Source: Stieleria neptunia
GTDB lineage: Bacteria; Planctomycetota; Planctomycetia; Pirellulales; Pirellulaceae
Assembly: GCF_007754155.1 (NCBI RefSeq)
Contig: NZ_CP037423.1
Span: 5,176,865 to 5,240,864, forward strand
DNA: 64,000 bases
Direction: 5' to 3'
Shown: positions 22,020 through 61,119 of the stretch, piece by piece
How positions within the stretch are numbered: the first letter of the stretch is position 1
Layout of the letters: every line of letters begins with the position of its first letter
Position numbers and translations under genes: made by a program
The notes under the pieces: generated by a model
The model's database searches: none
What the model was told of the DNA's origin: nothing
What the model saw: the letters and a program-made list of their open reading frames with translations, nothing else

Positions 22020-22020
22020 G

Positions 22021-22440: not shown

Positions 22441-22462
22441 GCGTGCAGTCATCCCTGTTTTT

Positions 22463-22477
22463 ACTGCCCACTGCCCA
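22463..22477. repeat. right inverted repeat flanking the S23 gene
   Basis: ACTGCCCACTGCCCA, the exact reverse complement of 22021-22035, with a further ACTGCCCACT unit at 22484-22493, just before the pglX ATG at 22502. Confidence 0.8.
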
Positions 22478-22501
22478 CCGCTTACTGCCCACTGAGAAAC
22501 T

Positions 22502-29349: not shown

Positions 29350-31390
29350 AAACACCGAAAACGACACGGGCCTCGACGAATTGCTCAATGAGCATTTCGC
29401 AGGCAAGGTAGTGCGCAAAGACCTGACCAAACTGGTCAAGGAGGGGGCGAATGTTCCGGTCTATGTTCTGGAATACTTGCTGGGGAACTACTGCGCCTCG
29501 AATGATCCGGAGGTCATCAATGACGGTCTGAATACCGTCAAGAAGGTGCTGGCCGACAACTACGTCCGTCCCGATGAAGCCGAGAAGGTGAAGTCCACGA
29601 TCCGCGAGCGTGGCAGCCTGAAGATCATCGACAAGGTGACGGTGACGCTGAACGAGAAGCGGGACGTGTACGAGGCCCTGCTGTCGAATCTGGGCACCAA
29701 GGGCGTCGAAATCCCAACCGGCACGGTGAAGAAGTACGAGAAGCTGCTGGCCGGTGGCATCTGGTGCATCATCACGATGCAGTATTTCTTCGAGGAAGGC
29801 CAGAAGGGATCACCCTTCCTGATCGAAGAACTCAAGCCGATCCAGATGCCCAACATGGACATGGATGAGCTGTTCAAGGGGCGGGGGTACTTCACCGAAG
29901 ACCAGTGGATCGACGTGCTGCTGCGATCCTGCGGTTACGAACCAACCCAGTTCGAGACACGGGTGAAGTGGCACTTGCTCTGCCGCATGATTCCCCTCGT
30001 CGAGAACAACTACAACGTCTGCGAACTCGGCCCCCGCGGAACCGGCAAAAGCCACATCTACAAAGAAATCAGCCCGAACAGCATTCTGGTTTCCGGTGGT
30101 CAAACCACGGTCGCCAACCTGTTCTACAACTTGGCCCGGCGCCAGGTCGGTCTGGTGGGCCTCTGGGACTGTGTCGCCTTCGACGAAGTGGCCGGCATTT
30201 CCTTCAAGGACAAGGACGGTGTCCAGATCATGAAGGATTACATGGCTTCGGGGTCATTCGCCCGTGGCCGCGATTCGATCAACGCCTACGCCTCAATGGT
30301 GTTCGTCGGGAACATCAACCAGCCCGTCGATACACTCGTGAAGACCAGCCATCTGCTGGCACCGTTCCCCGAGACGATGATCGACTCGGCCTTCTTCGAC
30401 CGCTTTCACGGTTACATCCCCGGCTGGGAAATCCCCAAGATGCGGCCCGAGTTCTTCACGAACCAGTACGGCCTGATCGTGGACTACTTCGCCGAGTGGG
30501 TGCGCGAGATGCGGAAACGCAACTTCGGCGATGCGATCAACAAGTACTTCAAGCTGGGGCGAGACCTGAATCAGCGCGACTCCATTGCCGTCAAACACAC
30601 GGTTTCGGGGTTACTCAAGCTGCTCTACCCCAACGAGCAATACGACAAGGACGCCGTCCGTCGCTGTCTGGAGTACGCACTGGAAGTCCGCCGCCGAATC
30701 AAAGAGCAACTCAAGAAGATCGGCGGCATGGAGTTCTACGACGTTCACTTCAGCTACATCGACGTGGAGACATCCGAAGAGAAGTTCATCAGTGTGGCAG
30801 AACAAGGCGGCGGCTCCATCATTCCCGATGGCCCACTCAATCCCGGTGTCCTTCACACGGTTTCCACTGGAGGCACCGATTCGCACCTTGGCCTCTACCG
30901 CCTGGAAACCCAAGTCACATCCGGCAACGGTTCACTGAAAATGTCGGGCCTTGGCTCAAACATGAAAGCCAAAGAGGCGATCAAAGTTGGTTTCGACTAC
31001 TTCAAAGCCAACGCTGGTGGGGTCAGTGCCTCGGTGAAAGTCGGCGATCACGACTACCACCTGCACGTCGTCGAGCTTCACAATACGGGGCCAACTACGG
31101 CCATGACACTGACCACGTTCATCGCTTTGTGTTCTGCCGTCCTTGGCAAGCCGCTGCAGAGCCAATTGGTTGTCCTCGGCAGCATGAGCCTGGGCGGCAA
31201 CATCATCCCCGTCGAGAACCTCGCCGAATCCCTCCAAGTCGCCCACGATGCCGGTGCCAAACGAGTCCTCCTCCCCATGGCCAGCGTCAGCGACATCCCC
31301 ACCATCCCCGGCGAACTGTTCGCCAAGTTCCAAACCAGCTTTTACTCCGATCCGAGGGATGCGGCGTTCAAAGCGTTGGGCGTGGAGTGA
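29333..31390 (+). CDS. brxL: BREX AAA+/Lon-like protein BrxL
   Basis: A 685-residue protein from ATG at 29333 (MTSTSENTENDTGLDELLNE), overlapping pglZ by 17 nt; the in-frame upstream codon at 29315 is less likely. Walker A ELGPRGTGKSHIYK lies near 230-243 and Walker B is WDCVAFDEVAG. The C-terminal Lon-like domain (TTAMTLTTFIALCSAVLGK, VLGSMSLGGNIIPVENLAES) shows TT where Lon peptidases have their catalytic Ser region, as in other BrxL proteins. BrxL is an AAA+ ring that binds DNA and is required for phage exclusion in type I BREX. This is the last gene of the operon. Confidence 0.93.
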   Translation: MTSTSENTENDTGLDELLNEHFAGKVVRKDLTKLVKEGANVPVYVLEYLLGNYCASNDPEVINDGLNTVKKVLADNYVRPDEAEKVKSTIRERGSLKIIDKVTVTLNEKRDVYEALLSNLGTKGVEIPTGTVKKYEKLLAGGIWCIITMQYFFEEGQKGSPFLIEELKPIQMPNMDMDELFKGRGYFTEDQWIDVLLRSCGYEPTQFETRVKWHLLCRMIPLVENNYNVCELGPRGTGKSHIYKEISPNSILVSGGQTTVANLFYNLARRQVGLVGLWDCVAFDEVAGISFKDKDGVQIMKDYMASGSFARGRDSINAYASMVFVGNINQPVDTLVKTSHLLAPFPETMIDSAFFDRFHGYIPGWEIPKMRPEFFTNQYGLIVDYFAEWVREMRKRNFGDAINKYFKLGRDLNQRDSIAVKHTVSGLLKLLYPNEQYDKDAVRRCLEYALEVRRRIKEQLKKIGGMEFYDVHFSYIDVETSEEKFISVAEQGGGSIIPDGPLNPGVLHTVSTGGTDSHLGLYRLETQVTSGNGSLKMSGLGSNMKAKEAIKVGFDYFKANAGGVSASVKVGDHDYHLHVVELHNTGPTTAMTLTTFIALCSAVLGKPLQSQLVVLGSMSLGGNIIPVENLAESLQVAHDAGAKRVLLPMASVSDIPTIPGELFAKFQTSFYSDPRDAAFKALGVE

Positions 31391-40924: not shown

Positions 40925-42049
40925 TCAAAATAATCGCGCCTGAACATCCTTCGATTTCTGGGGTCGTGGACGTGGCGTTCCGTATTGTTTGACCTCGTAT
41001 TGCTCGGCGCGCGAGATGAGTTCTGCTTTTGTCGCGTCCTTCAACACCGGCATTCTACCTGCTTGAATGTGTTCCTCGACGTGAGCAATGTGCTCCCTGG
41101 CCGCCGACACTGACATCTCAACAGTGATTTGTTCCAGTGGAGCAGGCATGACACGGACGAGTCCATCCAGGATGATGGCCCGCCCGTTAGTGAACCTCTC
41201 CATTCGCACTAATTCAACCGCACTCCACCCATTGGCCAGCACAGGATGATGGTTGACGATCTGATCCCGCTCGTAGATACGTGGTTCACCGACTGGCTTG
41301 GTATACCAGTTGAGCGCAATGCACGGTGTATTCTTCGCGATAGTTACAGGTTTCCAATTGATCATCCAGCGGCTCGCATGCTTAGTCTTATCGAATCGAT
41401 GGCTCCCGGACCATCGGATGGTTGGCGATCTGTGACCCGCCGATGGTCTCGCCCGATCTTCGAGAACACCGGATAAATATTGTTCTGCGAACCACTGCTG
41501 TGTACGTACCCGGCCGAACCCGGAGAGCTTGGCGAGCGTTTCGGTGAATATCTCGACTTCAACAATCATGCTCCCAAAGTCAAGGAACACAGGCTTCTCG
41601 CATGTCGAGATGTGCTTGTTTTGCCCGAGTGAGAAAAATGCACGTTGACCAGTCGAAATAACCTTGAACCGCTCGGTCGCATCGAATACCCATACCATGT
41701 CGCCGTAGAACTTCTCTCGCTCTGCGATTTCGGGCACAGGGATATTTGAATGCTGGAGTTCAATGACAGTCTTGTTGTTGCCGATGATGTCGGCTCGATG
41801 TTCGCCTATCGTCACTTCCTTGGAGTCCAGACGAACCAAGTCTTGCCAAGCGATGTGCCACGGCCCGACGTTCTCCGACCATTTATCGCATTCGCCGCGG
41901 GCTTTGTGCTTCCAATGGTGGATGACCTGCGTTCCGCAGTGAGATACGACCGTGCTGCCGCATGTGAGGCACTTACCCCATACGCCGGGTTCCGGCAGGC
42001 ACTTGATGCCGTCCACGTCCGCAAAGCGCATTGTTCCGCCATGAGCCAT
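40925..42049 (-). CDS. CoiA-like nuclease-domain protein
   Basis: A 374-residue protein. An N-terminal zinc-knuckle-like region (CLTCGSTVVSHCG) precedes HHWKHKARGECDKWSENVGP and HRADIIGNNKTVIELQHS, the PD-(D/E)XK pattern of the CoiA competence family, where the Glu of GEH, the Asp of RADI and the Glu of VIELQ would bind metal. CoiA proteins take part in handling incoming single-stranded DNA in transformation; many homologues sit on mobile elements. The second half is unassigned. Stands alone, flanked by gene-poor DNA. Confidence 0.65.
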   Translation of the reverse strand: MAHGGTMRFADVDGIKCLPEPGVWGKCLTCGSTVVSHCGTQVIHHWKHKARGECDKWSENVGPWHIAWQDLVRLDSKEVTIGEHRADIIGNNKTVIELQHSNIPVPEIAEREKFYGDMVWVFDATERFKVISTGQRAFFSLGQNKHISTCEKPVFLDFGSMIVEVEIFTETLAKLSGFGRVRTQQWFAEQYLSGVLEDRARPSAGHRSPTIRWSGSHRFDKTKHASRWMINWKPVTIAKNTPCIALNWYTKPVGEPRIYERDQIVNHHPVLANGWSAVELVRMERFTNGRAIILDGLVRVMPAPLEQITVEMSVSAAREHIAHVEEHIQAGRMPVLKDATKAELISRAEQYEVKQYGTPRPRPQKSKDVQARLF

Positions 42050-42778
42050 TTGCGTTGTAATACTCCGTTTGGCTGCTTGTAGAAGTCGTACGCGGTCGCC
42101 TATTCTCGGCCATATGGTAGCGTGGCCACCAGTTAAGTAGACGCGAAACTACCGTCAACGTCCAGCCGCGCCGCAGATGACCGGCGCGAGTTTGTTGATC
42201 TTGGTGCGAGTGGATTCATTGGTTTCTGCGAGTTTCACTATCAACATGGCTAAGCGTCAGCTATGTGGGTCTTGAGTCTCAACACCGATGCGAGTTCCGA
42301 AGATTGTTTAGAGCAAGCGGTTGCATCGTCCGCCCGCAGATCGAATGGCTGCCAATCCGCAGACCTGCGACAGACCGATGCATTTTACGCAAATCCTGAA
42401 ACTGCGTCGGATTCATCGTCCGACGCGTTTCTGGTTCTTCGCTAACTCGCGGAGGACGTGAACTTCCACGCAGGCTACGCGGACGGCTGAGGGCCGCTGC
42501 CGGTGCCCAATTTGCAAGATTCGGAGGTACACCGGCGTCGGCCGCCGGAGCGCGCAAGCTTGGCATGCTTACCAACCGAACAAAGTCCGCGTACCTTTTC
42601 TTCTCTGGCATGAACAACACTATGCGGCGTAGGCAGCAGCAATTTCACGGATAGAGCTTCTCTGCCAAACATAGTCGCGTAGTTCTTTGCATCGTCTTTG
42701 GAACGACGAGGTATGGGAGCCATATCAGCGACACAATACAGGATTTTGACGTCGACTTCTACGCTCGTCTGTTATGGC
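42050..42778. other. gene-free stretch with repeat remnants
   Basis: About 730 bases without a supported gene. It holds a reverse-oriented copy of the GGTACGCGGACT repeat family (about 42480-42605) and a short piece shared with other copies (CTGCGTCGGATTCATCGTCC, about 42403-42422). Short open frames here follow the repeat and have no protein-like pattern. Confidence 0.5.
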
Positions 42779-43735
42779 TCAATCCAACGGCTGCAAGATT
42801 GCAACAACGGAACACCCACCATTCGGTCCAATTGCAGTCTCGTTCGTGTAAATAGGTAGCGCGGACACCGAAAAATGCCGGGATTTCCTGCCAAAATCGA
42901 GAGTTTGCTTGCCGTCGACAGGGATCTGCGACATAGAAGCCTCGAAAATCGGGCCTTCACATGGGATCGATTTTGACTGGGGGATAAACTCATTCACCCT
43001 CTCGTCAAAAGCACGGTTCGCAATCCGATAATCGACGCGCAGTTTGGGTTCCGGCTCTGGAAGATCGAGGGCCGGGAACAGAGATGGTGTCATTCGGCTT
43101 GCTTTCAGCTCCCGCTCTTCCACCGGTTTCAGTTTCCAGCTGAAAAAAACTGCCGCCATGGCGCTCGGATGCACTTCAACAACTCGCCGAGCAGTGGCAT
43201 CCCGTGAAGCCTCGAAATCGTCGGCAAGCTTGGCCAAGTTTTCGGCCGAGATGCTGAGCAGTTTCAAGCAATCGTCGAACCAGGGAGTTGGAAACATCAG
43301 CTCAGACGCCGCAACATCGCAGAGCGTTTCGAGCAAATCCTCGGGGTCGGCAAACGAGCGGCGATCACCTTTTCGACACCTCACTTCCAACTGGTACTCT
43401 GGAAAAAGTGTGTGCCCGACCTCGTGGCAGATGCTGAATCTTTGCCGAGTGAGTGGCCGGGTCTTATCCACCCGGAGCACAACTCGCCCATCTGATTCGG
43501 GAGCAATTTCCGAGTCTGGGCTGAACCTTGGGTCATCATCAGACCAGTGCAGACCTCGCAGGCTGGCTATTGCTTTGACATCGAAAGGCGGTTCCCCACC
43601 GAAGAGCTGGTGAAATTGGGAGATAACGTCTCGTGCTTTTGTTCGTACGGCTTCATGCGGGTCTTCGACACCAGTCTCATCCATGATGGCGAGAATATGC
43701 TGGTGCAGATCTGATCTTCGGTGCCTTCTTGGCAT
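42779..43735 (-). CDS. ImmA/IrrE-type metallopeptidase
   Basis: A 318-residue protein. The zinc peptidase motif HEVGH is at 104-108 (RFSICHEVGHTLFPEY), with a downstream Glu-containing helix (LCDVAASELMFPTPWF) as expected. The C-terminal 150 residues are a separate unassigned domain. ImmA-type enzymes cleave a partner XRE repressor when a signal arrives, switching on mobile-element or defence genes. The XRE gene lies 2 nt upstream on the same strand and the pair is divergent from the MBL and E2-E1-JAB-patatin operon, so control of that operon is a reasonable inference. Confidence 0.82.
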   Translation of the reverse strand: MPRRHRRSDLHQHILAIMDETGVEDPHEAVRTKARDVISQFHQLFGGEPPFDVKAIASLRGLHWSDDDPRFSPDSEIAPESDGRVVLRVDKTRPLTRQRFSICHEVGHTLFPEYQLEVRCRKGDRRSFADPEDLLETLCDVAASELMFPTPWFDDCLKLLSISAENLAKLADDFEASRDATARRVVEVHPSAMAAVFFSWKLKPVEERELKASRMTPSLFPALDLPEPEPKLRVDYRIANRAFDERVNEFIPQSKSIPCEGPIFEASMSQIPVDGKQTLDFGRKSRHFSVSALPIYTNETAIGPNGGCSVVAILQPLD

Positions 43736-43737
43736 CG

Positions 43738-44190
43738 TTACCTACCGGTCGTTCTTTTTAGGGTGCGATAGAGGTCTTCCCAATCCTCGGCCGTCTTCGG
43801 CTGGCCGCCTCGAAACCGCATCGTCGCAAGGTCATGCACCTCGTCCTCGGAGAGTTCGCGATCGGTCTTTTTCATCCAATCACAGAATTCTTTCAGAGAC
43901 TTGCTGATTTCGATTGCACGATTGTCGACCTGCACTGATGGAAGGCCGAGAAGGTCAGCGATAGTGACCCGCAGTGGCCCAACCAATTTCATGAGCGTGT
44001 CCGCCGACGGCCTCTTCTCGCCTTTCTCGTCGTTCTCTAACTCCCACAGATAAGTCTTCGAGAGCTTGGATTCATCAGCCAACTGATCGAGGGTCAATCC
44101 AGCCTGCTTACGGGCGTCGCGAATGCGATTTGCCAGCGTTCCACCGGGCGTTCTCCCCGTGTTTTTCGGTCGTTCTCGTTTCTTGGCCAT
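43738..44190 (-). CDS. XRE-family helix-turn-helix regulator
   Basis: A 150-residue protein from ATG at 44190 (MAKKRERPKNTGRTPGGTLA); five more residues are possible from 44205. The HTH covers residues 19-75 (IRDARKQAGLTLDQLADESK, LSKTYLWELENDEKG). The C-terminal part (EISKSLKEFCDWMKKTDREL) is helical and may be the cleavage or sensing part. It is paired with the ImmA-like peptidase and faces a 151-bp intergenic space before the MBL gene, where its operator should lie; no palindrome stands out to me. Confidence 0.85.
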   Translation of the reverse strand: MAKKRERPKNTGRTPGGTLANRIRDARKQAGLTLDQLADESKLSKTYLWELENDEKGEKRPSADTLMKLVGPLRVTIADLLGLPSVQVDNRAIEISKSLKEFCDWMKKTDRELSEDEVHDLATMRFRGGQPKTAEDWEDLYRTLKRTTGR

Positions 44191-44341
44191 GCAATAAGCG
44201 TACACTTCTGCGTTCGCTTCGGCAATACGCTTGTTCGCTGGGGTTGAATCCCAGGCTGAGATGCGATATGTTCGTTGCAGTTGAACTTTTCGTTCCTCTG
44301 GAGCGGAGAGGTTTGTTCATCTCAACAGCACTGAGGGACAC

Positions 44342-45526
44342 ATGAGTTTCAAGCTGCCAGAACACGGATTTGTCTTTTGGCCGATCGGTACCGGTGACAG
44401 CACCACAATTTGCATCGACAAAGACACGGTCATCCAAGTGGATATTCACAATCTGGAGATCGCGAATGACGACGACGATCCGAGAACACCGATCGTGGAT
44501 CGCCTGGTTGACTTGCTACCGAAAAAGAATGGCAAGCCATACCTCGCACTTTTTGTCCTTACCCATCCAGATAAGGACCACTGTCTTGGTTTCAAAGATC
44601 TAATGAAGAAAGTGACCATCGGCGAAGTCTGGTTCTCGCCGCGGGTCTTTCGTGAGAACAATTCCGACCTGTGTGATGATGCGACAGAATTTCGCAAAGA
44701 GGCGAAACGCCGTGTAAAGAAAGTGATCGACAGCACGGGATCCGTATCAGTCGGCGATCGCGTTCGAATCATCGGTTACAGCGATCTACTGGAAGAGGAC
44801 GACTACAAGAGCTTTCCAGATGAAAAGCTCAATCGCCCGGGTGATGTTGTTACCGAGGTTGACGGGAAGTGTCGCAAAGACAAGTTCTCTGCCTTTATCC
44901 ACGCACCTTTCAAAGACGACAGTAACTCACGCGAACGGAACGAGACAAGCATTGCGTTTCAGGCCGAGTTAGTTTCGGGATCACACACTGGCCAGGCGCT
45001 CTTGCTCGGCGATTTGAGCTATCCCAGTGTTCGCCGGGTCTTTGACGAAAGTGACCGGCACAAAAACAGCAATCGCCTGCACTGGGACGTATTTCTCTGT
45101 CCCCACCACTGCTCAAAATCTGTGATGTACTGGAAAGACGAGGGAGAGGAAGAGGCCAAGCTAAAACAGGACATCCTCGACGATATCGAGAAGGCCGGAG
45201 AATCGGTGGGATACATTATTGCGAGCAGTAGTGAAATTCCGTCATCCAACAAGAGTGGCGACAACCCGCCGCATGCCAAAGCGAAACGCCGCTATGAAGA
45301 GATTGCACCAAGTGGGTTTCTCTGCACGGGGGAACACGTCGATAAGGATAACCCAGAACCCATCGTCTTCGAGTTAACCGATTCGGGCTTTGCCTACAGC
45401 GAACCCAAAAAGGAGGAGAGCAAAAAATCCAAAAAATCAGATCAGTCAGCCTTGAGCAAGGCTGTAATTGCTGGGCGCGGTCGCCCAACTCCTCCAACGG
45501 AACGGGTAGGGTTTGGAAGCAAATGA
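44342..45526 (+). CDS. ComEC-like metallo-beta-lactamase-fold hydrolase
   Basis: A 394-residue protein. The metal motif HPDKDH is at 75-80, followed by an Asp in ALLLGDLSYPS and a His pair in LCPHHCSKS, so all key positions of the ComEC/Rec2-type MBL fold are present. There is no membrane segment. The C-terminus is Lys/Ser-rich and ends in a Pro-Thr-rich tail, RPTPPTERVGFGSK. The stop overlaps the ATG of the next gene (ATGA), so the two are coupled. MBL proteins are known companions of bacterial E1/E2/JAB clusters; the substrate, nucleic acid or second messenger, is unknown. The tail deserves attention as a possible conjugation site, but this is speculation. Confidence 0.82.
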   Translation: MSFKLPEHGFVFWPIGTGDSTTICIDKDTVIQVDIHNLEIANDDDDPRTPIVDRLVDLLPKKNGKPYLALFVLTHPDKDHCLGFKDLMKKVTIGEVWFSPRVFRENNSDLCDDATEFRKEAKRRVKKVIDSTGSVSVGDRVRIIGYSDLLEEDDYKSFPDEKLNRPGDVVTEVDGKCRKDKFSAFIHAPFKDDSNSRERNETSIAFQAELVSGSHTGQALLLGDLSYPSVRRVFDESDRHKNSNRLHWDVFLCPHHCSKSVMYWKDEGEEEAKLKQDILDDIEKAGESVGYIIASSSEIPSSNKSGDNPPHAKAKRRYEEIAPSGFLCTGEHVDKDNPEPIVFELTDSGFAYSEPKKEESKKSKKSDQSALSKAVIAGRGRPTPPTERVGFGSK

Positions 45527-48500
45527 TGAATTCTGAGCAAAAGCTAGCGATAGACCAGATCCAGCGAGTGGCAAAGCAGAGCGACGCTCTCGAGGTCATC
45601 AACGTCATCAGTTCCGAAAAATCTGATTCGTTTGTCATCGTCGATCTTTCTCTGTATTGCGGGGACTTGGTCGGGGCAGATGGTGGGTTTCCAATCAAGG
45701 AAAGGGAAAGGGTGCGGGTGCTAATTGGCCCTGATTACCCTTACGCCCCACCATCCGTGGCTTCGTCACACACCCGCTTCGCTGGATATCCCCATGTGAA
45801 TTGGAAGCGTTGGCTGTGCCTCTATCTTGCTCCGCAGACTGAGTGGTCGCCCCGAAACGGGATGTTTGGATTTCTTGAGAGACTAGAGCTTTGGCTTAGA
45901 CGTGCAGCATTGGGTGAACTAGACGAGACTGGAGGGCCGATTCATCCACCGGTGACCTATTCGTCAAAGGGGCCGCTACTAATACCCCGGAGTGATACCC
46001 CCAACGTCGACGGCGAACCGTGGCTGGGATTCGCAAATCTCAAGCAGATTTCACCCGATCGGATCGATCTAGTCGGCTGGGCGCGTGACGAGGAGTTGGC
46101 AGAGACAGCTGGTGTCGCGATCCTCCTGGACGCCCCTATGCCACTAGAATTCCCTTCAAAACTCAATGAGTTGATTGAATGCATCGCAGATCGTGGCGTG
46201 TCCGTTGAGTCGGTTTTTGAGCTACTAAGAAAAGCTGCCGAATCAAATTCCTCCGATACTCCACTGTTCGTTGTGGTTGGCACTCCAATGCGCGGAACAA
46301 AGGGGAAGGAGCTCAAACAGCACTTAACTGGATGGCGTGTCGACACACTCTTGAACAAAATAGCATCGCTGGATGGCGATCTTTTGCAAGACAGACGGGT
46401 TGCAAATGCAAACGATCTTTCAGATTGGTCAGCTTCTATTGACGAACACAGGGGGCGCCTGATGGAACTATTTGCCGATTGGTCGAAGGAAGCAGACATT
46501 ACGTGGTGCCGTGTACGCGAGGATCGACCGGAGATCGTTACTCGCCGAGACAACGGCAAGCCGGTATCATGGTTCTCAGGAAGGAATTTGGAATTATGGG
46601 GTTGCGGAGCACTTGGTGGATACATCGCTGAATGGCTGGTAAGGGCCGGCGCGGCAAAGATCATTTTGCGGGATGAGGGTGTCGTTACCCCTGGACTGCT
46701 AGTGCGCCAACCCTTTCACGACGAGGATATTGGGACCTTCAAAGCTGAAGCATTGGCGGCTCGACTTCGAAAAATCTCTCCAAGCTGTCAGATTGAAACA
46801 TCGACGAAAGATGTCATTGAATGTCCGCTCGGCAATCCCGGCGAATGTACTGACTGTGATCTCATCATTGATGCAACAGCCTCCAATATCGTTCTCAGCA
46901 AACTAGAAAGCGTTTGGCGAAGTTCGGCTGGAATTCGAAAAAGAATTGCATCCGTAGCGATCGACAGAGAAGCTGAGCGACTCCTCGTTGGCATAGCAAA
47001 ACCCGAGCATTCGGGTGGTCCGCTCGATATCTTGAGGAAGATGAAGCTGAAGGCGTGCAAGGACGGCACCCTCAAGCGATACCTCGATGCCTTTTTCCCT
47101 GAGAATCCCCCCGTTCCATTTCAGCCTGAACCCGGTTGTTCAGATGCGACTTTTATCGGGTCGGCGGCAGATGCTGCGTCTTTGTCATCATTGGCTGTCA
47201 ATTTCATTGGACGCGCACTAAGCGAGGATCTCTGCGAATCAACTGGCTTCGGTGCTTACATGTCGGATGCATGCGCGGAAACGATCGCTCCGCCATTCGT
47301 TAAGTTCGAATTTTCTCCAGATCATTGCGTGCAAGACCCGGAAAGTGGATTTGAAACCCGCATTGCTGCATCAGCGTGGCGATCAATAAAATCCTGGAAA
47401 GCCGATTCTGCAAGGCGGCGTGGAGCAGACGTTGAGACAGGCGGTTTGTTATTTGGCGAATTGGACGAGCTGCTAAAGGTCGTTTGGGTGACAGAAGTTA
47501 GTGGGGCACCATCTGATAGCATCCATTCCGCTGAAGAATTCGTATGTGGGATCAACGGTACGACTCAATTAAATGATTCAATCACGGATCAAAGTAGACG
47601 ATCCGTTCAGTTTGTTGGCTCTTGGCATACCCATCCAGTTTCGCCTGCGATCCCAAGTGGAAAAGACCTTGCCGCAATGGACCGGTTGCTCGTGCAGAGT
47701 CCTGTGCCGTCTGAAAGACAGCTTTTATTGATCATTGGCCATGCGAGCACATCAATGGAGACGGGCGCATTTATCTTCCAACGAAAGGAGTTCGAATCAT
47801 TGCGGCGTTCAGGCCAGCTTTCGCGTCAGATTGCGATTTCAGAGTCTCCTTCTCTCAGACCTGACCTGCTCCCAAGCATCGGGTTGTCGCTTTCTGGAGG
47901 TGGATCGCGGGCAATGGCATTCCACTTGGGCTGTCTTCGCGCTTTAAATGACCGCGGAGTCTTGGATCGTGTTCAAGTACTATCCACGGTTTCTGGAGGA
48001 TCGGTCATTGGAGCAATGTTTGCTTTTTCCAACACACCGTTCGAAGAATTCGAGCTAGATGTCCGCGCAGCGCTGCGCCGAGGATTCGCAAAAGGCCTCG
48101 TACGCAGAACGCTGCTGTCGCTTCGCCTGTTTCAGATTCTTGGTACGTGGATTTTTTCTGGTGTTCCCGCGAATATGACATTCGCAACACGTTTCATTCT
48201 CGGCCGTGCCAACTCGTTAGTGCCAAAGGATTCTCGTGCCGGGGGAACTGTTGCGCAGTCACTTCAACCACCGTTTCGTCGCTGGGTAAATCGAACCAAC
48301 GCACTAGAACAGACTTTTGCTGACTTACTCTTCGGTGAGACCAAAGTCGCGCAAGTAGCCAGAGATGGGCTTGATGTTGTTATCAATGCAACAGAACTAA
48401 GAACTGGCACTGCTTTTCGATTTGGTAACAGAGAGTCTGGATGTTGGCGGTTCGGTACGATTGAAAACAACGATGTCAGTGTTGCAAGAGCTGTCGCCGC

Positions 48501-49041
48501 TTCAGCCGCTTATCCTGCGTTGCTTCCGGCAATCGATACCGTGCTTCAGTATTCGCACGGTTCGAGTGATGGTGAATCGAAACGCACGATTCTTACCGAT
48601 GGCGGTGTGTACGAAAACCTTGGAATCTCCTGCATGATCCCTGGGCGAGACAAAGCATTTTCAACGAATGTTTTTTCCCCCGATTACATTGTTTGCTGCG
48701 ACGCAGGGCCTGGACAGTTCAGCGATACAGTGATGCCCTACGGCTGGGGAACACGGATGATGCGGTCCATTGAAACGACATTCCGTCAAGTGCAGCATGG
48801 ACTTCAGAAGCAAATCCACATGTGTCGCGAGAATCGAGAACTAAAGGGGTTTGTCTATTCCTACCTCGGACAACAGGACGCAAGACTCCCAATCCGTCCG
48901 CCTGAGCTTGTTACACGTGATCAAGTGACGCATTACCCGACCGATTTTTTTGCCATGAGCAACACTGACATCGAGCTACTATCGCAGCGTGGCGAGCAGC
49001 TCACTCGGCTTCTGATCGACCACTATTGTCCGGAACTCTAA
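45523..49041 (+). CDS. E2-E1-JAB-patatin fusion protein
   Basis: A 1172-residue protein with four enzyme modules. E2-like (1-150): IGPDYPYAPPSV and candidate catalytic C99 in KRWLCLYL. Linker (150-345): alpha/beta, unassigned. E1/ThiF-like (350-590): nucleotide-binding loop GCGALGG at 360-366, D384, and a candidate catalytic C539 in PGCSDATF. JAB/JAMM isopeptidase (about 600-765): E638 (ETGG), then HTHPVSPAIPSGKD with H702, H704, S712 and D715, the complete JAMM set. Patatin phospholipase (785-1172): GGGSR at 792-796, nucleophile S824 in VSGGS, catalytic Asp in DGG (1026-1028). E1/E2/JAB modules attach or remove ubiquitin-like tags; patatins destroy membrane lipids in CBASS. It overlaps the MBL gene by 4 nt. 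Confidence 0.9.
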   Translation: MMNSEQKLAIDQIQRVAKQSDALEVINVISSEKSDSFVIVDLSLYCGDLVGADGGFPIKERERVRVLIGPDYPYAPPSVASSHTRFAGYPHVNWKRWLCLYLAPQTEWSPRNGMFGFLERLELWLRRAALGELDETGGPIHPPVTYSSKGPLLIPRSDTPNVDGEPWLGFANLKQISPDRIDLVGWARDEELAETAGVAILLDAPMPLEFPSKLNELIECIADRGVSVESVFELLRKAAESNSSDTPLFVVVGTPMRGTKGKELKQHLTGWRVDTLLNKIASLDGDLLQDRRVANANDLSDWSASIDEHRGRLMELFADWSKEADITWCRVREDRPEIVTRRDNGKPVSWFSGRNLELWGCGALGGYIAEWLVRAGAAKIILRDEGVVTPGLLVRQPFHDEDIGTFKAEALAARLRKISPSCQIETSTKDVIECPLGNPGECTDCDLIIDATASNIVLSKLESVWRSSAGIRKRIASVAIDREAERLLVGIAKPEHSGGPLDILRKMKLKACKDGTLKRYLDAFFPENPPVPFQPEPGCSDATFIGSAADAASLSSLAVNFIGRALSEDLCESTGFGAYMSDACAETIAPPFVKFEFSPDHCVQDPESGFETRIAASAWRSIKSWKADSARRRGADVETGGLLFGELDELLKVVWVTEVSGAPSDSIHSAEEFVCGINGTTQLNDSITDQSRRSVQFVGSWHTHPVSPAIPSGKDLAAMDRLLVQSPVPSERQLLLIIGHASTSMETGAFIFQRKEFESLRRSGQLSRQIAISESPSLRPDLLPSIGLSLSGGGSRAMAFHLGCLRALNDRGVLDRVQVLSTVSGGSVIGAMFAFSNTPFEEFELDVRAALRRGFAKGLVRRTLLSLRLFQILGTWIFSGVPANMTFATRFILGRANSLVPKDSRAGGTVAQSLQPPFRRWVNRTNALEQTFADLLFGETKVAQVARDGLDVVINATELRTGTAFRFGNRESGCWRFGTIENNDVSVARAVAASAAYPALLPAIDTVLQYSHGSSDGESKRTILTDGGVYENLGISCMIPGRDKAFSTNVFSPDYIVCCDAGPGQFSDTVMPYGWGTRMMRSIETTFRQVQHGLQKQIHMCRENRELKGFVYSYLGQQDARLPIRPPELVTRDQVTHYPTDFFAMSNTDIELLSQRGEQLTRLLIDHYCPEL

Positions 49042-49044
49042 GCA

Positions 49045-49717
49045 TTACTCGTCGCTTCGAGGTTGATAGATCTTCATCTGCCCACGCCTCAGGCGGAGTG
49101 CTGTGATTGGAACCGGCTGAACCCCCTGAGACTGTCGCTTCTTGTTTGCGGATCGAAGCAGATTCGGAAGTAGTCGGCGAACTGGGGCGTACCTTGCAAA
49201 GGGGAGCTTTCCAAATCCTTCCCCCAGATTCTCCGGAGAGCGATGACAAGCAATACCACCGAAGTGGGACTTCAGTTGCTTGTACGTGGGGCGATCGATC
49301 CGCACATGGGCATGCCATCTCACTGCCCCCCTTTTCCGTCACTCCCGATCGCCGGTAAGAAATCGAGTAGCCGGCAATCTTGATCGGCATGCGGCGACAA
49401 TCCCGGAGTTGGTTCTTCTCCCGTCACCGATCCTCATGCTGTTCGGATCCGGTGGTGACCTTTTGTCTCCAGCAAGTGAATCAGTCTTCAATCCGCGCAT
49501 GCTGGACATTGGCGAGCCCAGCCTTTCGCCGCCTGGTTGGCTCCCATGGGGAAACATCGATTCCGTATTTTCGGATCGGTTTCTTGTTAGTCTTGAGCGG
49601 ATCTTTCCCGACCGTGATTTTCACCGTCACGTACCAAAAGTAGTCGTGGCGAAGATAGTTCCTGGCAATCAGCTGAACTATTCCGTCGGCTGAATTTGCT
49701 TCGCACCGATAATCCAC
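49045..49717 (-). pseudogene. frame-disrupted gene of a planctomycete-type family
   Basis: Three minus-strand pieces in different frames join into one protein-like sequence: YFWYVTVKITVGKDPLKTNK ... LANVQHARIED (49717-49481), a middle piece with KIAGYSISYRR near 49390, and VRIDRPTYKQLKSHFGGIAC ... FARYAPVRRLL (to 49045). At least two frame changes and a stop after ARIED separate them. I have a memory of similar proteins dispersed in planctomycete genomes but cannot name a function. It ends 4 bp from the stop of the fusion gene, convergent with it. Confidence 0.5.
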
Positions 49718-49814
49718 GGATGGCTTTCGGGCGACGGAAAGGTACGCGGACTCGTTTTTTTCTTGAAGGGTGACGTCTGCTCACCGTTCGTGTTTTGAAC
49801 AAAGTTTGGGTGCT

Positions 49815-49953
49815 CCGGTGGCCGACGCCGGTGCAAATTCGGGCTGAGATTGCAGTCTGAATCGAGCAGCGTTCGTGGCCAAGGACGAGACGAGCCGTCA
49901 TGGCGTATTTGGACATCCGTCCCAAACTGCGTCGGATCCTTCGTCCGGCGCAG
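49815..49953. repeat. dispersed ~135-bp repeat, copy B
   Basis: Close copy of 11083-11216 (shared GTGCAAATTCGGG, GCAGTCTGAATCGAGCAGCG, GACATCCG, CCCAAACTGC), with a 5-bp insertion and about ten substitutions. It runs directly into the ~280-bp duplicated block that follows. Confidence 0.8.
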
Positions 49954-50233
49954 CTTGCTGGCGATTGCGATTCGCTCGCCATGCCCTTGATCTCCTATTT
50001 CGTTGCCACGGTTTTGGGGTTTGGGTAGACCCTCTTCTAAGGCCGTTCTTTCGTCGGAGCCATCGTCCGTCGCCCACCGTTGGGCGAAGCGTCAGCGGAG
50101 CGAATGGTGACGGACGATTGCGACAGAGAAAGGTTAGGCCGTGGCCCGGCGGCTTGCCCGCCCCGTTCTTTCGTTGGTGAATTGTTTTGTGGGCTCAACG
50201 ACGAGGAATCGTGCGGGGTTACCCCGCTCCTTG
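49951..50233. repeat. ~280-bp imperfect direct repeat, copy 1
   Basis: From CGCAGCTTGCTGGCGATT to GGGGTTACCCCGCTCCTT. The second copy is at 50791-51069. Inside is a long-arm hairpin ATCGTCCGTC / GACGGACGAT around a smaller GCCCA/TGGGC stem, so the unit is highly structured. No gene is visible in it. Confidence 0.8.
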
Positions 50234-50479
50234 ATACGGTTACCATTCGCTGCGTCGTAGTTTCACTCCGACGCAGGTTAGGGCGTCCCGCGTGCATGCA
50301 CAGGTCACGCCCACTTTGGTCCCGATCGATTGGAAGACCTGGGCCTCGCTGACAGGATTCGAAATGTCGTCAATCTGACGCTGCAGCTGCGGAGGTGTCC
50401 GCCACCGACGCGCCGAAGCCTGTTGGAGAACCTGCGTCGGTTGGTCCAACCGAGGCGGCGAAGGGTCCCGCGATCGATA

Positions 50480-50529
50480 GGACCAATAGGACAGATGCGA
50501 CCTATAAGTCCTATGTGTCCTATTGGTCC
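50480..50529. repeat. perfect 14-bp inverted repeat
   Basis: GGACCAATAGGACA at 50480-50493 and its exact reverse complement at 50516-50529, separated by 22 nt. The spacer has a shorter related unit (TAAGTCCTATG). Hairpin former in non-coding DNA; no U-tract follows, so it is not an obvious terminator. Confidence 0.75.
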
Positions 50530-50572
50530 CATTGCACGATTGGTACCCCATCCTCGGAGCAAAGGCAAAACA

Positions 50573-50615
50573 ATGGGGGCAAAACAATTTTAGGCTGTGA
50601 TCGTTTTGCCCCCAT
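50573..50615. repeat. perfect 13-bp inverted repeat
   Basis: ATGGGGGCAAAAC at 50573-50585 and GTTTTGCCCCCAT at 50603-50615, 17-nt loop. It lies 44 bp after the 14-bp inverted repeat in the same gene-free region (49718-51160). Confidence 0.75.
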
Positions 50616-50790
50616 CGTCTTGCCCATCGTTCGTTGTCTAGTCGAGCAACAAAGACTGACAACTGAGGGCGCCGCGGTTGCATCGACTTCCGCGCTGAAA
50701 CTCTCGGCTGAATTCGCTTCGGTGTCGCGAAATCGGGGGCACCGACGCGCCGATATGATTGTCGCGAAGGTGCACCGGCTTCCTCGTCCG

Positions 50791-51069
50791 ACGCAGCTTG
50801 CTGGCGATTCGCGCGCCATGCCCTAGATCTCCTATTTCTTTGCCACGGTTTTGGGTTCAGGTAGCCCCTCTTCTACGGCCGTTCTTTCGTCGGAGCCATC
50901 GTCCGTCGCTCACCCTTGGGGGCGAAGCGTAGCGGAGCGAATGGTGACGGACGATTGCGACAGAGAAAGGTTAGGCCGTGGCCCGGCGGCTTGCCCGCCC
51001 CGTTCTTTCGTTGGTGAATCGCTTTGCGAGCTCAACAACAAGGAATCTCGCGGGGTTACCCCGCTCCTT
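50791..51069. repeat. ~280-bp imperfect direct repeat, copy 2
   Basis: Second copy of 49951-50233, about 840 bp downstream, in the same orientation, with small indels. The stretch from GAATGGTGACGGACGATTGC through CGTTCTTTCGTTGGTGAAT is almost identical. It ends about 90 bp before the next ORF. Confidence 0.8.
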
Positions 51070-51160
51070 TCTCTCTTCCTAGAACAATCGCTCGGAAACT
51101 TTGAGTGCCTTGCACGGCCGTGCTATCACTTGCCCATAACGTAGGGTCCAAAGGGGGCAC

Positions 51161-51829
51161 ATGGGTGAGTATGAAGATAGGCGACCGGGACGAAAGGGCG
51201 ATGGACAGGAGCAGCCAGAAGACAGTCACCTCTCGCATACTGACGTCAACGGCCAAGCCAATCTAGAGAACTGGTCATTTATTGGGCAGGATGGCCAACC
51301 GCTCGAAAACAGGAAGTCAGATTTCATAAGCAAAGAAGACTGGTGGGAGAAAGCCAAGCACTTAGAAGAGTACATTTCTCGTAGTGAGCTTGAGTGCATG
51401 CGGCTGTCGATGAATAGGGCAGAACAATTAAAGGAAATCAAACCGGTAAATAGGGCTGGGTCGGTTGCGTCTGGCAGCACTCGGGATGATTTCGCAGGCG
51501 ATTTTAGCTTAACTCGTGAAAACGTCGAAGGTTTAAGTTCGCTTACTGGGCGACCTTTGGTTCAACCAGCGGTCGACAACAATGAAAGCGTACGCGAGCA
51601 GCAAGCTAGCGACACTCAGCATGCTGAAGACGCAGAGCGTTTTGAAGCAGCTGTCATTGGTGCCCGACAGCAAAAAAGGCGATGCGACATTGATGCGGGG
51701 TTCGGGAATCCTGGAATTTTCCGCCGCGCAATTGCCGCATTTCGAAGGGCTTTCAATCTGTATCCAAAGGCACGACGGAATATTGGTGTTGAGGGTGTAG
51801 AGAGTCGGCCGCTTCGTCGCGATAGCTGA
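51161..51829 (+). CDS. hydrophilic hypothetical protein
   Basis: A 222-residue protein. The ATG follows AGGGGG at about 4 nt. It is polar and acidic N-terminally (QEQPEDSHLSHTDVNGQANL), with a helical middle (DWWEKAKHLEEYISRSELEC) and a basic C-terminus. No motif or homologue is recognised. It converges on the 743-residue gene with only 3 bp between the stops. Real, but function unknown. Confidence 0.5.
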   Translation: MGEYEDRRPGRKGDGQEQPEDSHLSHTDVNGQANLENWSFIGQDGQPLENRKSDFISKEDWWEKAKHLEEYISRSELECMRLSMNRAEQLKEIKPVNRAGSVASGSTRDDFAGDFSLTRENVEGLSSLTGRPLVQPAVDNNESVREQQASDTQHAEDAERFEAAVIGARQQKRRCDIDAGFGNPGIFRRAIAAFRRAFNLYPKARRNIGVEGVESRPLRRDS

Positions 51830-51832
51830 TGC

Positions 51833-54064
51833 TCAAACGCGAACTATTTTCCAACTGTCTTTGGGTTTTTTGGAAAACTTCCTGTGGTGCCATGGCAAGA
51901 ACTTTCCATACATCCAATCAGCCCACCACTCGGCATTGTATACCGCACCGGCATGGTCGAAGGGAGGGTCGGAAAGACGCGAACAAGCGTACAAAGCATT
52001 GTAGTACAGTGCATAAAATCGCTCTTTATGACTATCTCTCCATGGGCACATCCCAGAGCGTTCGTAGTTTGTCCGCGTATCGTCTCCTAGGAGCCATCTA
52101 ACGAACTCGGGACAAATTGTAGCTCCGGTAATTCTATTGTCTTCGGATGAGTCTCGTGCGTCAGTTGTGTAAACGACAGGGTAGAAAGTGTCAGAGTTGG
52201 CATCACCGACGCAACAGATGTTAATCGCGTCAAGCCGCTGGCCCTCGGCATCTACTATGTAATCTGGGAGTGGATGCCGAGTTTCGAATGTCGACACGTG
52301 CCCGTTATATCGATACTGAACTTCAGCCCAAATTGCGTCAGAACCGGGCTCCGGTGTCAATCGAAGTAGCGTGGCGGGGTGTACGATAAATTTGCTCGGT
52401 CCGGTGGTGCAAAAGGTAACTGGTCTTGGGCTCCATCGGACCGCTTGCGGTTTGTCCTCATACTCTTCATCTTCGAAAGTTTTTGTTCCCGTGATGCTGG
52501 CTTGAAACCCTATCACGTACCAAGCACCATCTTTGTAGACGAAGACATCAGCGGGGCGGAATTCCTTCTTCAGGACCGTCCGGTGCCAGAATTCAAACTG
52601 AGCGATTCCACCGTTGTGACTGAGCATGAAAGAGCAAAGCTCTTCTGAATCTCTGTTGGTCACAATCGTCCAGAATTCTTCAGCTGGAAGGTTTTCAGTT
52701 TTTTGCTGAAGTCTTATTGCGACCCGTCCATCTTCCAGTAACGTGAAAATTTGGAGCTGTCGGCTTTCTTCGGTTTTGAGTTCTACGAAATCAAGTGTGT
52801 AATTGTGTTCTCTCGCATATTTATTGACGTCCCACGGGCTTCGGTTGGGAGTACGGTCAATCCTGTGGGTGTTTTTCGCTTCCTTCGATTGATTCCGATG
52901 ACCTTCAGCTGTCGAAAATGGAATGAGACCTGGTTCATTGCTTACTTGCTGGGAGTTTTGCGTCCGATTTACGAGGTTTGGAAAAGCTTTGTGCAGTGAA
53001 ATAAACACCCAATCGGAGTCTTCGTTGTTGAACTCGTAAAAAGCAGAGGGGATAGGGACGCCATCCTCCACTCGCCACATTTCAAGGGTTGTACCCGAGG
53101 AGTGCTCGAAGAACCGGAAAACGAATTTGAGTCCATCGTCATCGGTGATTGATAGCTGCTGTTCGTGCTGGAGAACCGTTGTCCCGTCCGTTGTGTTGTT
53201 TTCTTCGTGGTCGGAAGCTATTGAACCATCGGAACGGAAAGAGAGGCCACGTGGAAACTTGGTAGCAGCTTTTCGTTCGAAGAGGATGCCTCTTTCTTTC
53301 GCGTACTTTCTGTAATCGACTGGCTTTAGAATTGGTTTGATAACGACCCTGTACCACGCAACATCTTCTTCGTTGAACACGAAAGTCGCATCAGGAGTTG
53401 GCTCATTTGTGTCGTTCGCCCAGAGGTCCAGTTGCGAACCGTCAGACCGGCTGTTGAGAAGTGCTGTGAAGTCTCCCGTTTTGATTTTGACACCTTCTTT
53501 GAGCGGCTCTCGTTCGGGAAGTCCGCTCATACCCACAACAAGCACTTCGACCTGTCCGCTAGAGCGAAGCTCGATTTCATCGCACGGTTGTTGAGTGACC
53601 CTCTCATGGTCGAAAGTGTTTCCGCTCTCTTGGGCATAAGCTGCAAAGTCAAAGGGCGAATCCCCGGATTTGTTTTTTTGAATGTCGGAGTTTCCCGAAC
53701 CGCTTATCTCTTCAAATACAACCTTAAACCAAGCCTTCTCCTGCGATTGGTAAAGATAGTTTTCGACTGCGGGGGCCTCGTCAGCGGTTCGGATGACGTC
53801 GAGTTGACTGTCAAATCGCGTGTCGATTTCTGGATGCTCAGACGGAGGTTTTAAGTCGATGGTGACAACTTCATCGTTTGGGAATCGGATAATTGTGTCG
53901 TCACCAACGGAAAGATCTAGCCAATTGCCATTCTTTTTTGCGTGAACCGTTCCCTGCGGATGAAGGACAAGGAAATCGTTGACAAATTCATCTTCGCAGC
54001 GTTCAAACCGAAAGCTGAGCGATGCTTCTTTAGCGTGTTGCGCAAAGTTGAAGGGACGGATCAT
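51833..54064 (-). CDS. four-repeat protein coupled to the conjugation operon
   Basis: A 743-residue protein with four degenerate repeats of about 110 residues (roughly 4-120, 137-244, 248-358, 410-522). Each starts with a pattern like FDFAAYAQESGNTFD or VDYRKYAKERGILFE, then has a G-x-L-x-W type core and ends with F.F..ED..W..V. The last 200 residues (PEFVRWLLGDDTRTNYERSG, WADWMYGKFLPWHHRKF) are a different domain. No signal peptide or transmembrane segment is visible. Its start overlaps the coupling-protein stop by 4 nt, so it belongs to the transfer operon. It could be an effector or substrate adaptor; no family is known to me. Confidence 0.65.
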   Translation of the reverse strand: MIRPFNFAQHAKEASLSFRFERCEDEFVNDFLVLHPQGTVHAKKNGNWLDLSVGDDTIIRFPNDEVVTIDLKPPSEHPEIDTRFDSQLDVIRTADEAPAVENYLYQSQEKAWFKVVFEEISGSGNSDIQKNKSGDSPFDFAAYAQESGNTFDHERVTQQPCDEIELRSSGQVEVLVVGMSGLPEREPLKEGVKIKTGDFTALLNSRSDGSQLDLWANDTNEPTPDATFVFNEEDVAWYRVVIKPILKPVDYRKYAKERGILFERKAATKFPRGLSFRSDGSIASDHEENNTTDGTTVLQHEQQLSITDDDGLKFVFRFFEHSSGTTLEMWRVEDGVPIPSAFYEFNNEDSDWVFISLHKAFPNLVNRTQNSQQVSNEPGLIPFSTAEGHRNQSKEAKNTHRIDRTPNRSPWDVNKYAREHNYTLDFVELKTEESRQLQIFTLLEDGRVAIRLQQKTENLPAEEFWTIVTNRDSEELCSFMLSHNGGIAQFEFWHRTVLKKEFRPADVFVYKDGAWYVIGFQASITGTKTFEDEEYEDKPQAVRWSPRPVTFCTTGPSKFIVHPATLLRLTPEPGSDAIWAEVQYRYNGHVSTFETRHPLPDYIVDAEGQRLDAINICCVGDANSDTFYPVVYTTDARDSSEDNRITGATICPEFVRWLLGDDTRTNYERSGMCPWRDSHKERFYALYYNALYACSRLSDPPFDHAGAVYNAEWWADWMYGKFLPWHHRKFSKKPKDSWKIVRV

Positions 54065-55119
54065 TGCTTTTTGTTTGGTTTCGAGATGTGAGTGTATTTT
54101 AAAGGACCAGACACGATATCTGGTTCCGGATCTGGTTCTGGATCTATTTTCACCCCTTCGTTATCTGGTGGTGGGTCGAATCCAAAGTGCTCGTAGTCTT
54201 CCGCTCCCCACGGCACTTCGTGTTGGTGACATTCCGGTGCCGGCACGTAAGGTTTGATCGTGTCGCAACGGGGTCGAAGCCGGTTGGTGATCTCCTCGTG
54301 ACACATTTTCTGGCCAGGCTTCGGACGGAATACATGAGGGCTCGTAAAGTATGCGTCTAGTCCGTCTTTGTTTGGATAGTTCAGCTGGTTGAACAGAAAG
54401 TAGGGAACGGTATCGTCTTCTTGCATGTGCGTCGTGCATCCCCTGCTGTCGGAATTTGATCCATAGGTTTGCGTGTTGGACTGTTGTTCGACCCATGATT
54501 TACCGAGTTGCTCGACGGCCTTCTTGATGTTGGCCGCATTTCCTTGCGGCAAGTACATCTGGTGAGGACACTGCCCGAGCACCAAACTTGCGTTGGCAGG
54601 CTTGTCGAACGCTTGTTCAAGGGAGTCATACCCGAGAGCAGTGACGACTACCCTTGCTCCGGCACTCCTCCCAACTTCGAGGAGGTTTGGAAGATTGTCC
54701 ATCTTCCCCATGAATTTGATTTCATCGAGGAGGAACCATGAAAGATCCGTCTTCGTGGGGCCTGCATTGATGACGGACTGGATAGCGTAAAGAAAAGTAA
54801 AGTAGTTAATGATTCTGGATTGGCTCTCTGCCTGTGAGTCGTAGCCGAGTACCAGGACTCCACCGGACTTTCTCCATTCCTTGATGCTGAATTTTGTTTT
54901 CGCGTGGTACCAAAGATTTGCGACGATTCGAAGAGGGTCGAGAGTTGCTGCTAGTGTAACGTCGACACTCCCTTTGATATCGGTCGACTGGTTGTTGATA
55001 TACTTCTCCATCGCGTTCTTGCCCGCGCGCGTCCGACTGAGGGCCTGCTTGAGAATGTGCATGTCTGACACACACTCAATTAGGTCTCGGAGGTCCCAAG
55101 TTCTTCCGCCTTCCGCGAG
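54061..55119 (-). pseudogene. coupling protein gene, C-terminal part, split by IS
   Basis: This part encodes the second half of a VirD4/TraD-like coupling ATPase: GGVLVLGYDSQAESQSRIIN, Walker B SWFLLDEIKF, then a sensor-like VVVTALGYDSLEQAF. An internal ATG at 55071 could give a 336-residue fragment lacking Walker A. Reading through the junction, ALAE (before the insertion) continues as GGRTWDLRDLIE, so the frame is intact when the IS and one target copy are removed. The tail is Pro/Glu/Asp-rich (DPEPDPEPD). The split should abolish coupling function, so this module can no longer mobilize by itself unless the other coupling protein substitutes. Confidence 0.85.
55112..55119. repeat. left target-site duplication
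   Basis: TCCGCGAG, repeated exactly at 56894-56901 on the other side of the IS. Confidence 0.9.
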
Positions 55120-57495: not shown

Positions 57496-57977
57496 GAGGC
57501 TCTCCTCTCAATGTCTTTTTGTGCTCGCTCGAAGGCGGCGAAAAGGATCTGGCCGATGTCATTGACGCTTGGGGACGTGCTTTTGTCTGGAAAGAGCACA
57601 TGGTGATTCTGAAGAATTACATTGAAAAAGGCAAAAATGTGGTACTGAAAGTGTTCCTGTTGGCTGGCTAGTTGGCGAGCGAATCTCTCTTGCTGTTGGC
57701 TTAGCTTTTCCTGATCCTCCGCTATGCTCTCAAGAGCAGTCGCGAGACCTTGTATCGCTCGCTCAATGCGATCAAGTCGGTCGTTGAATTCACTGCCATC
57801 CATTTGTTGCGATTGGCTGTTGATTTCAGGTGAGGTTCCGTTGACGATTCCGGTAACAAATTGTCGCAATTTGTCGCTCCGTTTGCCACCATCGGGGACG
57901 CGTTCCAGGAACGCAGCTTTGAGGTCGGGCTCGATTTTAAAGGAAATCGCCTCGTTCTTCACGAATTTTTTCTTCAT
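57492..57977 (-). CDS. mobilization accessory protein (RHH plus coiled coil)
   Basis: A 161-residue protein. The N-terminus (AISFKIEPDLKAAFLERVPD, then KRSDKLRQFVTGIV) fits a ribbon-helix-helix DNA-binding domain. Residues 65-115 form a coiled coil (RLDRIERAIQGLATALESIA, DQEKLSQQQERFARQLASQQ). The end, HIFAFFNVILQNHHVLFPDK, is shared with the product of 62699-63136, so the two are paralogues. It overlaps the relaxase stop and the coupling-protein start by 4 nt each, the position of a relaxosome accessory protein. Confidence 0.7.
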   Translation of the reverse strand: MKKKFVKNEAISFKIEPDLKAAFLERVPDGGKRSDKLRQFVTGIVNGTSPEINSQSQQMDGSEFNDRLDRIERAIQGLATALESIAEDQEKLSQQQERFARQLASQQEHFQYHIFAFFNVILQNHHVLFPDKSTSPSVNDIGQILFAAFERAQKDIERRAS

Positions 57978-60910: not shown

Positions 60911-60921
60911 TCTTGGTTCTC

Positions 60922-61119
60922 CTAGAAGGTTTCGGTTTCGCCGCAACCTGGGCAGTTCCGCCGCCGCATCTGTTCCATGTACGCTTCTAGGTGTGCTTTC
61001 TGGATAGATTCATCAGAAAGCTGGGCTCTCTCTTCTTTCGTGAGAGAGTCGAGTTCATTGGTCGCTTTCGTGTCCTCGACTTGCGAGTTTCCGCATTCGG
61101 TTCTTCGACGGGATTGCAT
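60922..61119 (-). CDS. CPGCG mini-protein, copy 2
   Basis: A 65-residue protein; the C-terminal 40 residues (LTKEERAQLSDESIQKAHLE, then NCPGCGETETF) match the product at 33630-33830. It ends 11 nt before the relaxase ATG, so it is the first gene of the transfer operon after the candidate oriT region. A single CxxC pair is present. It may help load or regulate the relaxase; this rests on position only. Confidence 0.65.
   Translation of the reverse strand: MQSRRRTECGNSQVEDTKATNELDSLTKEERAQLSDESIQKAHLEAYMEQMRRRNCPGCGETETF

Follow-up and report, generated by a model that had tools for sequence, protein, structure and literature searches.

A two-gene operon of the planctomycete Stieleria neptunia probably combines ubiquitin-like conjugation with an effector, a metallo-beta-lactamase-fold (MBL) protein standing in the place held by the CD-NTase in type II cyclic oligonucleotide-based antiphage signalling systems (CBASS). 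The operon lies in the window, a stretch of 64,000 nucleotides (NCBI RefSeq assembly GCF_007754155.1, contig NZ_CP037423.1, positions 5,176,865 to 5,240,864 of the forward strand), and its second gene is a bacterial defence-island gene that unites E2, E1, a JAB protease and a patatin-like phospholipase in one chain of 1172 residues. The conserved C-terminal tail of the MBL suggests that the MBL, instead of ubiquitin, is the protein attached to others. The operon, the four domains, the conserved tail, the swapping of partner and effector, and the CapH/CapP-like regulators are read directly from the sequences. An initial annotation, made from the letters of the window, had described the second gene as a single-protein machine; it was right on the domains but missed the MBL gene directly upstream, whose product is likely the tagged protein.

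The four domains and the catalytic residues named in that annotation are borne out. All four Pfam domains score above their cut-offs, and the named residues are conserved over 40 aligned rows. In the E2, C99 and H83 are invariant (38 aligned rows), and the patatin dyad S824 and D1026, as in a Ser-Asp patatin fold, is invariant over 40. The PADLOC E1-E2 profile matches at 3e-90, identifying a Cap2-type E1-E2 fusion, and the JAMM residues, invariant in the aligned relatives, identify a Cap3-type JAB that is fused in the same chain; the PADLOC JAB profile gives 1e-21 over the full protein, with its strongest stretch at residues 609-760. The predicted structure agrees, giving a Cap2-like E1 at about residues 348-601 (PDB matches 7to3 and 7tsq, the latter being Cap2 with the CdnD02 C-terminus bound) and a patatin at about 780-1172 that resembles the PlpD, CapE and CapV folds. 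The best Foldseek match of the modelled chain is Cap2, which supports the E2 and the JAB alongside the Pfam and PADLOC profiles; the BubCD structure 9ea4 also appears among the structural matches, and no JAB-spanning match was singled out among the matches listed for the predicted model. By fold and dyad, the patatin is modelled as a CapV/CapE-like phospholipase with putative activity and nucleotide response.

The MBL and E2-E1-JAB-patatin frames overlap by 4 nucleotides, and no gene lies between them. The MBL has no Pfam match, only a weak match to PADLOC M48B (5e-7) and no credible match in a PDB sequence search; the MBL fold is seen in its predicted structure, in which the tail has low pLDDT and reads as disordered. 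In 66 aligned MBLs, a variable linker precedes the tail consensus ARGxxxPPxxxVGFG, which is followed by 0-6 residues differing in number and identity, and a Gly stands at the position of Gly392 in all 66. The codons of these MBLs vary synonymously at all four V-G-F-G positions and at A-R-G, and therefore selection acts on the peptide and not on a ribosome site. The same variation rules out the tail as a ribosome-binding-site artefact, and the window contains no Rfam match within 42000-52000. Distant plasmid MBLs, which also adjoin E2-E1-JAB genes, end in RAG, HG, YG or TQG with 0-4 further residues.

The tails were counted across 86 distinct partner tails beside JAB-fused E2-E1 frames, with identical 30-residue tails counted once. 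Loci whose E2-E1 frame lacks the N-terminus, the partner-less L056 (L numbers denote individual loci), and the truncated L076 and L130 were excluded; the tails of L076 (VGFGGDTE) and L130 (PRFGRCR) contain Gly too. In L130 (genome G044, from the phylum of the window), the MBL tail APRFG-RCR adjoins the E2-E1 frame, and the MBL match has one internal TGA. L090 was included although its record ends inside the JAB; without it (n=85) the partners comprise 81 MBLs by profile, two CD-NTases (L024 and L098), one STAND protein and one fragment (L117, where an IS5-family transposase gene separates the MBL pieces). The L024 CD-NTase meets the MBL profile apparently through its tail alone, and the partners in L026 and L029 are fragments as well. 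A Gly is found among the last seven residues of every one of the 86 tails. An [FYH]G ending is seen in 80/86 partner tails versus 36/674 of the remaining gene predictions in these loci, and the fuller motif xG..P..[FYH]G in 72/86 versus 0/674, the motif having been derived from the counted tails themselves and the control genes being uncurated open reading frame calls. Most partners (74/86) extend 1-6 residues past the Gly. GRAG is the exact C-terminus of 10/10 CD-NTases beside JAB-less E2-E1 genes, all of them from actinobacteria or from plasmids of these.

The tail is also found on partners of another fold. In 81 fetched loci (80 kept of 260 related loci in a genome scan, and one from a viral collection), the MBL gene is present in 72, L024 and L070 hold another partner in that slot, and the remaining seven gave no MBL call, the frame beginning at a contig edge in four of them. 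The slot of L024 (Planctomycetales) holds a CD-NTase (SMODS 2e-25, PADLOC cyclase 2e-145), and L113, from the class of L070's genome, has at 4130-9485 a CBASS-like row of TIR-SAVED, CD-NTase and single-chain E2-E1-JAB. When a profile of MBL tails only was compared with 9236 open reading frames, the sole non-MBL matches at E < 0.01 were the CD-NTases of L024 (1.6e-9) and L113 (6e-7), both beside E2-E1-JAB; each of them occurs again under a second locus identifier. In the E2-E1-JAB tree, L024 groups with L011 (support of 90 in the Shimodaira-Hasegawa-like approximate likelihood-ratio test, SH-aLRT) and L113 falls in a group with 96, both inside MBL-partnered groups. The cyclase-partnered machines are thus nested among MBL-partnered ones, and therefore the tail follows the conjugation machine, not the fold of the partner. 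This is a quick tree with long branches and an outgroup included in its counts, which are accordingly rough: at least seven changes in the fused state and at least four in the partner. In L070 (Nonomuraea; 4511-9336), an NB-ARC-like NTPase (NB-ARC 1e-3, below the cut-off) directly precedes E2-E1-JAB and ends in ARGDDSAVPPESTFG plus six residues, a likeness to the MBL tail that was judged by eye, the MBL tail profile giving an E of 0.53; by this likeness and its gene position, L070 is a possible STAND-based version.

The patatin varies in its placement as well. Of the 81 loci, 29 (counting those cut by a contig end) encode it within the E2-E1-JAB frame and 41 in the frame that follows; the other 11 have no adjacent patatin, and among them the record of L076 stops short of that position. 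Fusion and a place directly downstream together account for 70/81 loci, which looks like an effector slot. A small membrane-type protein, judged by eye, is next downstream in five of the 11 loci with a non-adjacent patatin (L029, L030, L035, L059 and L060, the first two belonging to one genome), and in L032 such a protein lies upstream on the other strand; the one in L030, after E2-E1-JAB, matches PADLOC M48A (3e-62), the sole PADLOC family match among them. Taking partners and effectors together, we lean towards the view that one E2-E1-JAB family reads a short, portable C-terminal tag of about 25 residues (ARGxxxPPxxxVGFG), a conjugation code without ubiquitin. The tag would have been placed on immune proteins whose folds are unrelated, namely MBL hydrolases and CD-NTases and perhaps STAND NTPases as well; the sensor itself would serve as modifier, and the effectors beside or inside the machine (patatin, membrane proteins, TIR-SAVED) would be exchangeable.

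PMC10097602 reports for CBASS that the C-terminal Gly of a bacterial cGAS becomes linked as a thioester to the E1-E2 fusion Cap2, that the conjugation of cGAS by Cap2 raises the output of cyclic GMP-AMP, and that Cap3 cleaves at that end. Because cGAS is joined through its C-terminal Gly in this way, the MBL is most likely conjugated too, and we consider it very likely to be the conjugated substrate. We infer every catalytic step of the mechanism. The JAB would trim the residues after Gly392, the E1 domain would adenylate Gly392 to yield a thioester at C539, and the E2 domain (C99) would transfer the MBL onto a target amine. Conjugation would switch on or place the MBL, and the JAB could also reverse the bond between MBL and target; by analogy, the fused JAB most likely does both the trimming and the removal. 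The active MBL may then lead, by some signal, to cutting of membrane lipids by the patatin (abortive infection), which would be a swappable membrane-attack effector. An anti-phage function is quite likely, and the patatin is likely a death effector. The initial annotation had suggested that tagging directly gates the phospholipase; this drew no support from the data, as there was no sign that the patatin is modified and it is a separate protein in 41 loci.

Three other explanations were weighed. The MBL may be conjugated and yet itself be the effector, as a ComEC/RNase J-like hydrolase attached to phage or host proteins, the patatin then being an accessory or an additional weapon; the position of the patatin in 70 loci has the look of the effector slot, making this unlikely. 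It is less probable still that the tail serves as a docking peptide, bringing the MBL to the E1-E2, and that the conjugate is some other protein, either one of the host or a ubiquitin-like one that escaped notice. Conservation by itself would look the same for docking and for conjugation, but no residue of the tail is more constant than the Gly, which has 0-6 residues after it, as is seen in processed modifiers, and the cGAS of related systems is a known conjugate through the same end (PMC10097602). Moreover, the partner stop codon lies -6 to +51 nucleotides from the aligned E2-E1-JAB start in the 85 JAB-fused cases, and therefore there is no room for a further gene. That the operon is a CBASS with a lost cyclase, the patatin answering cyclic nucleotides from a CD-NTase elsewhere in the genome, would suit the Cap2-like E1-E2, the CapV/CapE-like patatin and the CapH/CapP-like regulators but is very improbable, given the MBL gene in 72 of the 81 loci and the lack of any SMODS CD-NTase (PF18144) match in the whole of genome G000, SMODS being the one cyclase family that the genome-wide search covered.

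Several observations weigh against conjugation of the MBL and killing by the patatin as proposed. Besides the possibilities that the tail could be a docking peptide and that the MBL may be the effector, no SMODS cyclase was found in G000 that would activate a CapV/CapE-like patatin, and therefore the usual CapV trigger is not obvious. Twelve of the 86 partner tails stop at the Gly, and therefore trimming is not always needed. The JAB as such is not tied to the extension: in PMC10097602, the last residue of cGAS is highly conserved as Gly or Ala across 1,583 proteins whose operons encode full-length Cap2 and Cap3, and the DncV-like CD-NTases of L144 and L145 likewise end at the Gly/Ala, in their case Ala, without extension. 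Because operons with a separate Cap3 end in this way, the extension may only mark this E2-E1-JAB family; it also often overlaps the start of the next gene and might be a by-product of coupling. Finally, tail-less controls are few: the Gly tail is absent in four MBL-type proteins without E2-E1-JAB (L127, L132 and two on the L131/L133 contig), of which that of L127 is weakly MBL-like (8.7 bits, no Pfam match). All nine plasmid loci opened of 250 records (L119-L126 and L128) carry an E2-E1-JAB gene, and therefore none of them could serve as a control.

The operon class itself is already in print. An E2-E1-JAB triple-module protein beside a specialised MBL gene was listed in 2006 as uncharacterised (PMC1779556, Table 1, row 6a), and the window shares with that row the E2-E1-JAB order in one chain and the adjacent MBL gene. 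The words 'patatin' and 'phospholipase' occur 0 times in that paper, and its section 14 mentions no Gly tail of the MBL and does not present the MBL as being conjugated. 'Lactamase' and 'patatin' have 0 occurrences in PMC12355090 and PMC11153139. Neither the patatin fusion nor the MBL tail turned up in the open literature, a weak negative as subscription papers mostly lay outside the search. The statement of the initial annotation that this is not a characterised system therefore fits the open literature, with the reservation that the E2-E1-JAB and MBL operon has been known since 2006.

Type II CBASS is the closest in several features, namely an E1-E2 fusion, a JAB peptidase, a partner with a conserved C-terminal Gly (here G392), a patatin effector fold and CapH/CapP-like regulators. 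The operon of the window differs in having an MBL instead of a CD-NTase, in the fusion of JAB and patatin to the Cap2-like part, and in the Ser-Lys that follows Gly392. The Bil and Bub systems are bacterial E1/E2/JAB-type conjugation systems in defence, which use a beta-grasp ubiquitin-like protein; in the window, on the other hand, E2-E1-JAB follows the MBL with no gene in between, the genome not having been searched for beta-grasp proteins. The PADLOC candidate PDC-M48 consists of an M48A membrane protein and M48B, to which the M48A-like small protein of L030 and the weakly M48B-like MBL of the window are related. In L127, an M48A-like gene (40.6% identical to that of L030) adjoins the weakly MBL-like protein without a Gly tail, and no E2-E1-JAB was seen in that stretch.

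The union of the four domains in one chain is not unique but common in sequence data. A protein search that scored 7993 candidates found 271 proteins, and all 120 of the matches listed, the window's own included, share the four domains; without that entry, they show 41-59% identity over 85-100% of the query. A unique fusion or an assembly error is thereby ruled out. Among 392 Planctomycetota genomes, only the window's own matches at E <= 1e-100. The E2-E1-JAB alignment, used as query, matched at E <= 1e-60 in 10/394 genomes of one class, only three of the matches reaching the JAB, and in 2/385 of another, and at E <= 1e-120 in 3/219, 1/35 and 1/200 genomes of three sets. Every one of these genome counts includes the centre genome, which was picked for having the system. 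The system is widely but thinly spread. The gene has no match in 50,697 phage records, and a contig of the viral collection (L086) has a related locus with all four domains. A second viral scan, outside the count of 86, gave 29 loci, nine of which were inspected: an MBL with a Gly-type tail lies directly upstream of an E1-bearing gene in L137, L138, L140 and L146, L144 and L145 have the DncV-like CD-NTases (identified by Pfam) that end in Ala, and no MBL match was found in L135, L136 and L139. L138 (3779-8340) has an MBL relative on either side of its single E2-E1-JAB gene, the downstream one lacking such a tail. MBL relatives were also seen in the 250 plasmid records (139 predicted conjugative; 125 from Klebsiella and 25 from Escherichia). 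Plasmids of enterobacteria may thus often carry operons of this class.

The surroundings of the operon are listed in Table 1. Divergent regulators stand upstream; elsewhere, annotated pairs of helix-turn-helix (HTH) and ImmA/IrrE genes (L116, L118 and L120) or WYL-domain genes (L115, L124, L125, L126 and L128) lie upstream of the operon. With its bacteriophage exclusion (BREX) and Upx genes, relaxases, coupling proteins and the integrases also found in it, the window is a mobile defence island.

Table 1. Positions in the window of the operon, its domains and the neighbouring genes.
Feature	Position	Strand	Remarks
ComEC-like MBL-fold protein	44342..45526	+	394 aa; 4-nt overlap (ATGA) with the E2-E1-JAB-patatin gene
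MBL C-terminal tail	45449..45523	+	residues 370-394; G392 codon 45515-45517, then Ser-Lys-stop
E2-E1-JAB-patatin gene	45523..49041	+	single frame, 1172 aa; profile matches and predicted structure
E2 (Prok-E2_A)	45550..45972	+	residues 10-150, C99; Pfam 5e-21
E1 (ThiF/Cap2-like adenylation domain)	46564..47325	+	residues 348-601, GCGALGG 360-366, C539
JAB/JAMM protease (Prok-JAB)	47416..47745	+	residues 632-741; E638, H702, H704, S712, D715; Pfam 7e-10
Patatin-like phospholipase	47860..49038	+	residues 780-1172; GGGSR 792-796, S824, DGG 1026-1028; Pfam 3e-21
CapH-like HTH repressor	43738..44205	-	divergent; PADLOC capH 3e-18
CapP-like M78 (ImmA/IrrE) metalloprotease	42779..43735	-	divergent; PADLOC capP 2e-21, Pfam Peptidase_M78 5e-12
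BREX gene row BrxA, BrxB, BrxC, PglX, PglZ, BrxL	17042-31390	+	PADLOC
Upx match	4981-8763	-	1260 aa; PADLOC 4e-162
TrwC-type relaxase	568-3027	+	profile match
TrwC-type relaxase	57974-60946	-	profile match
TrwB/TraG-type coupling protein	11423-13045	+	profile match
TrwB/TraG-type coupling protein	54061-55071	-	profile match limited to the later part

The tailed MBL supplies a concrete, testable substrate candidate for a class of operons that the 2006 listing had left uncharacterised. The fused patatin puts conjugation and, as we infer, cell killing in one chain. If the proposal is true, Cap2-type priming would extend from nucleotide cyclases to another enzyme fold, and if the tag is portable, it would offer a natural handle for C-terminal protein joining.
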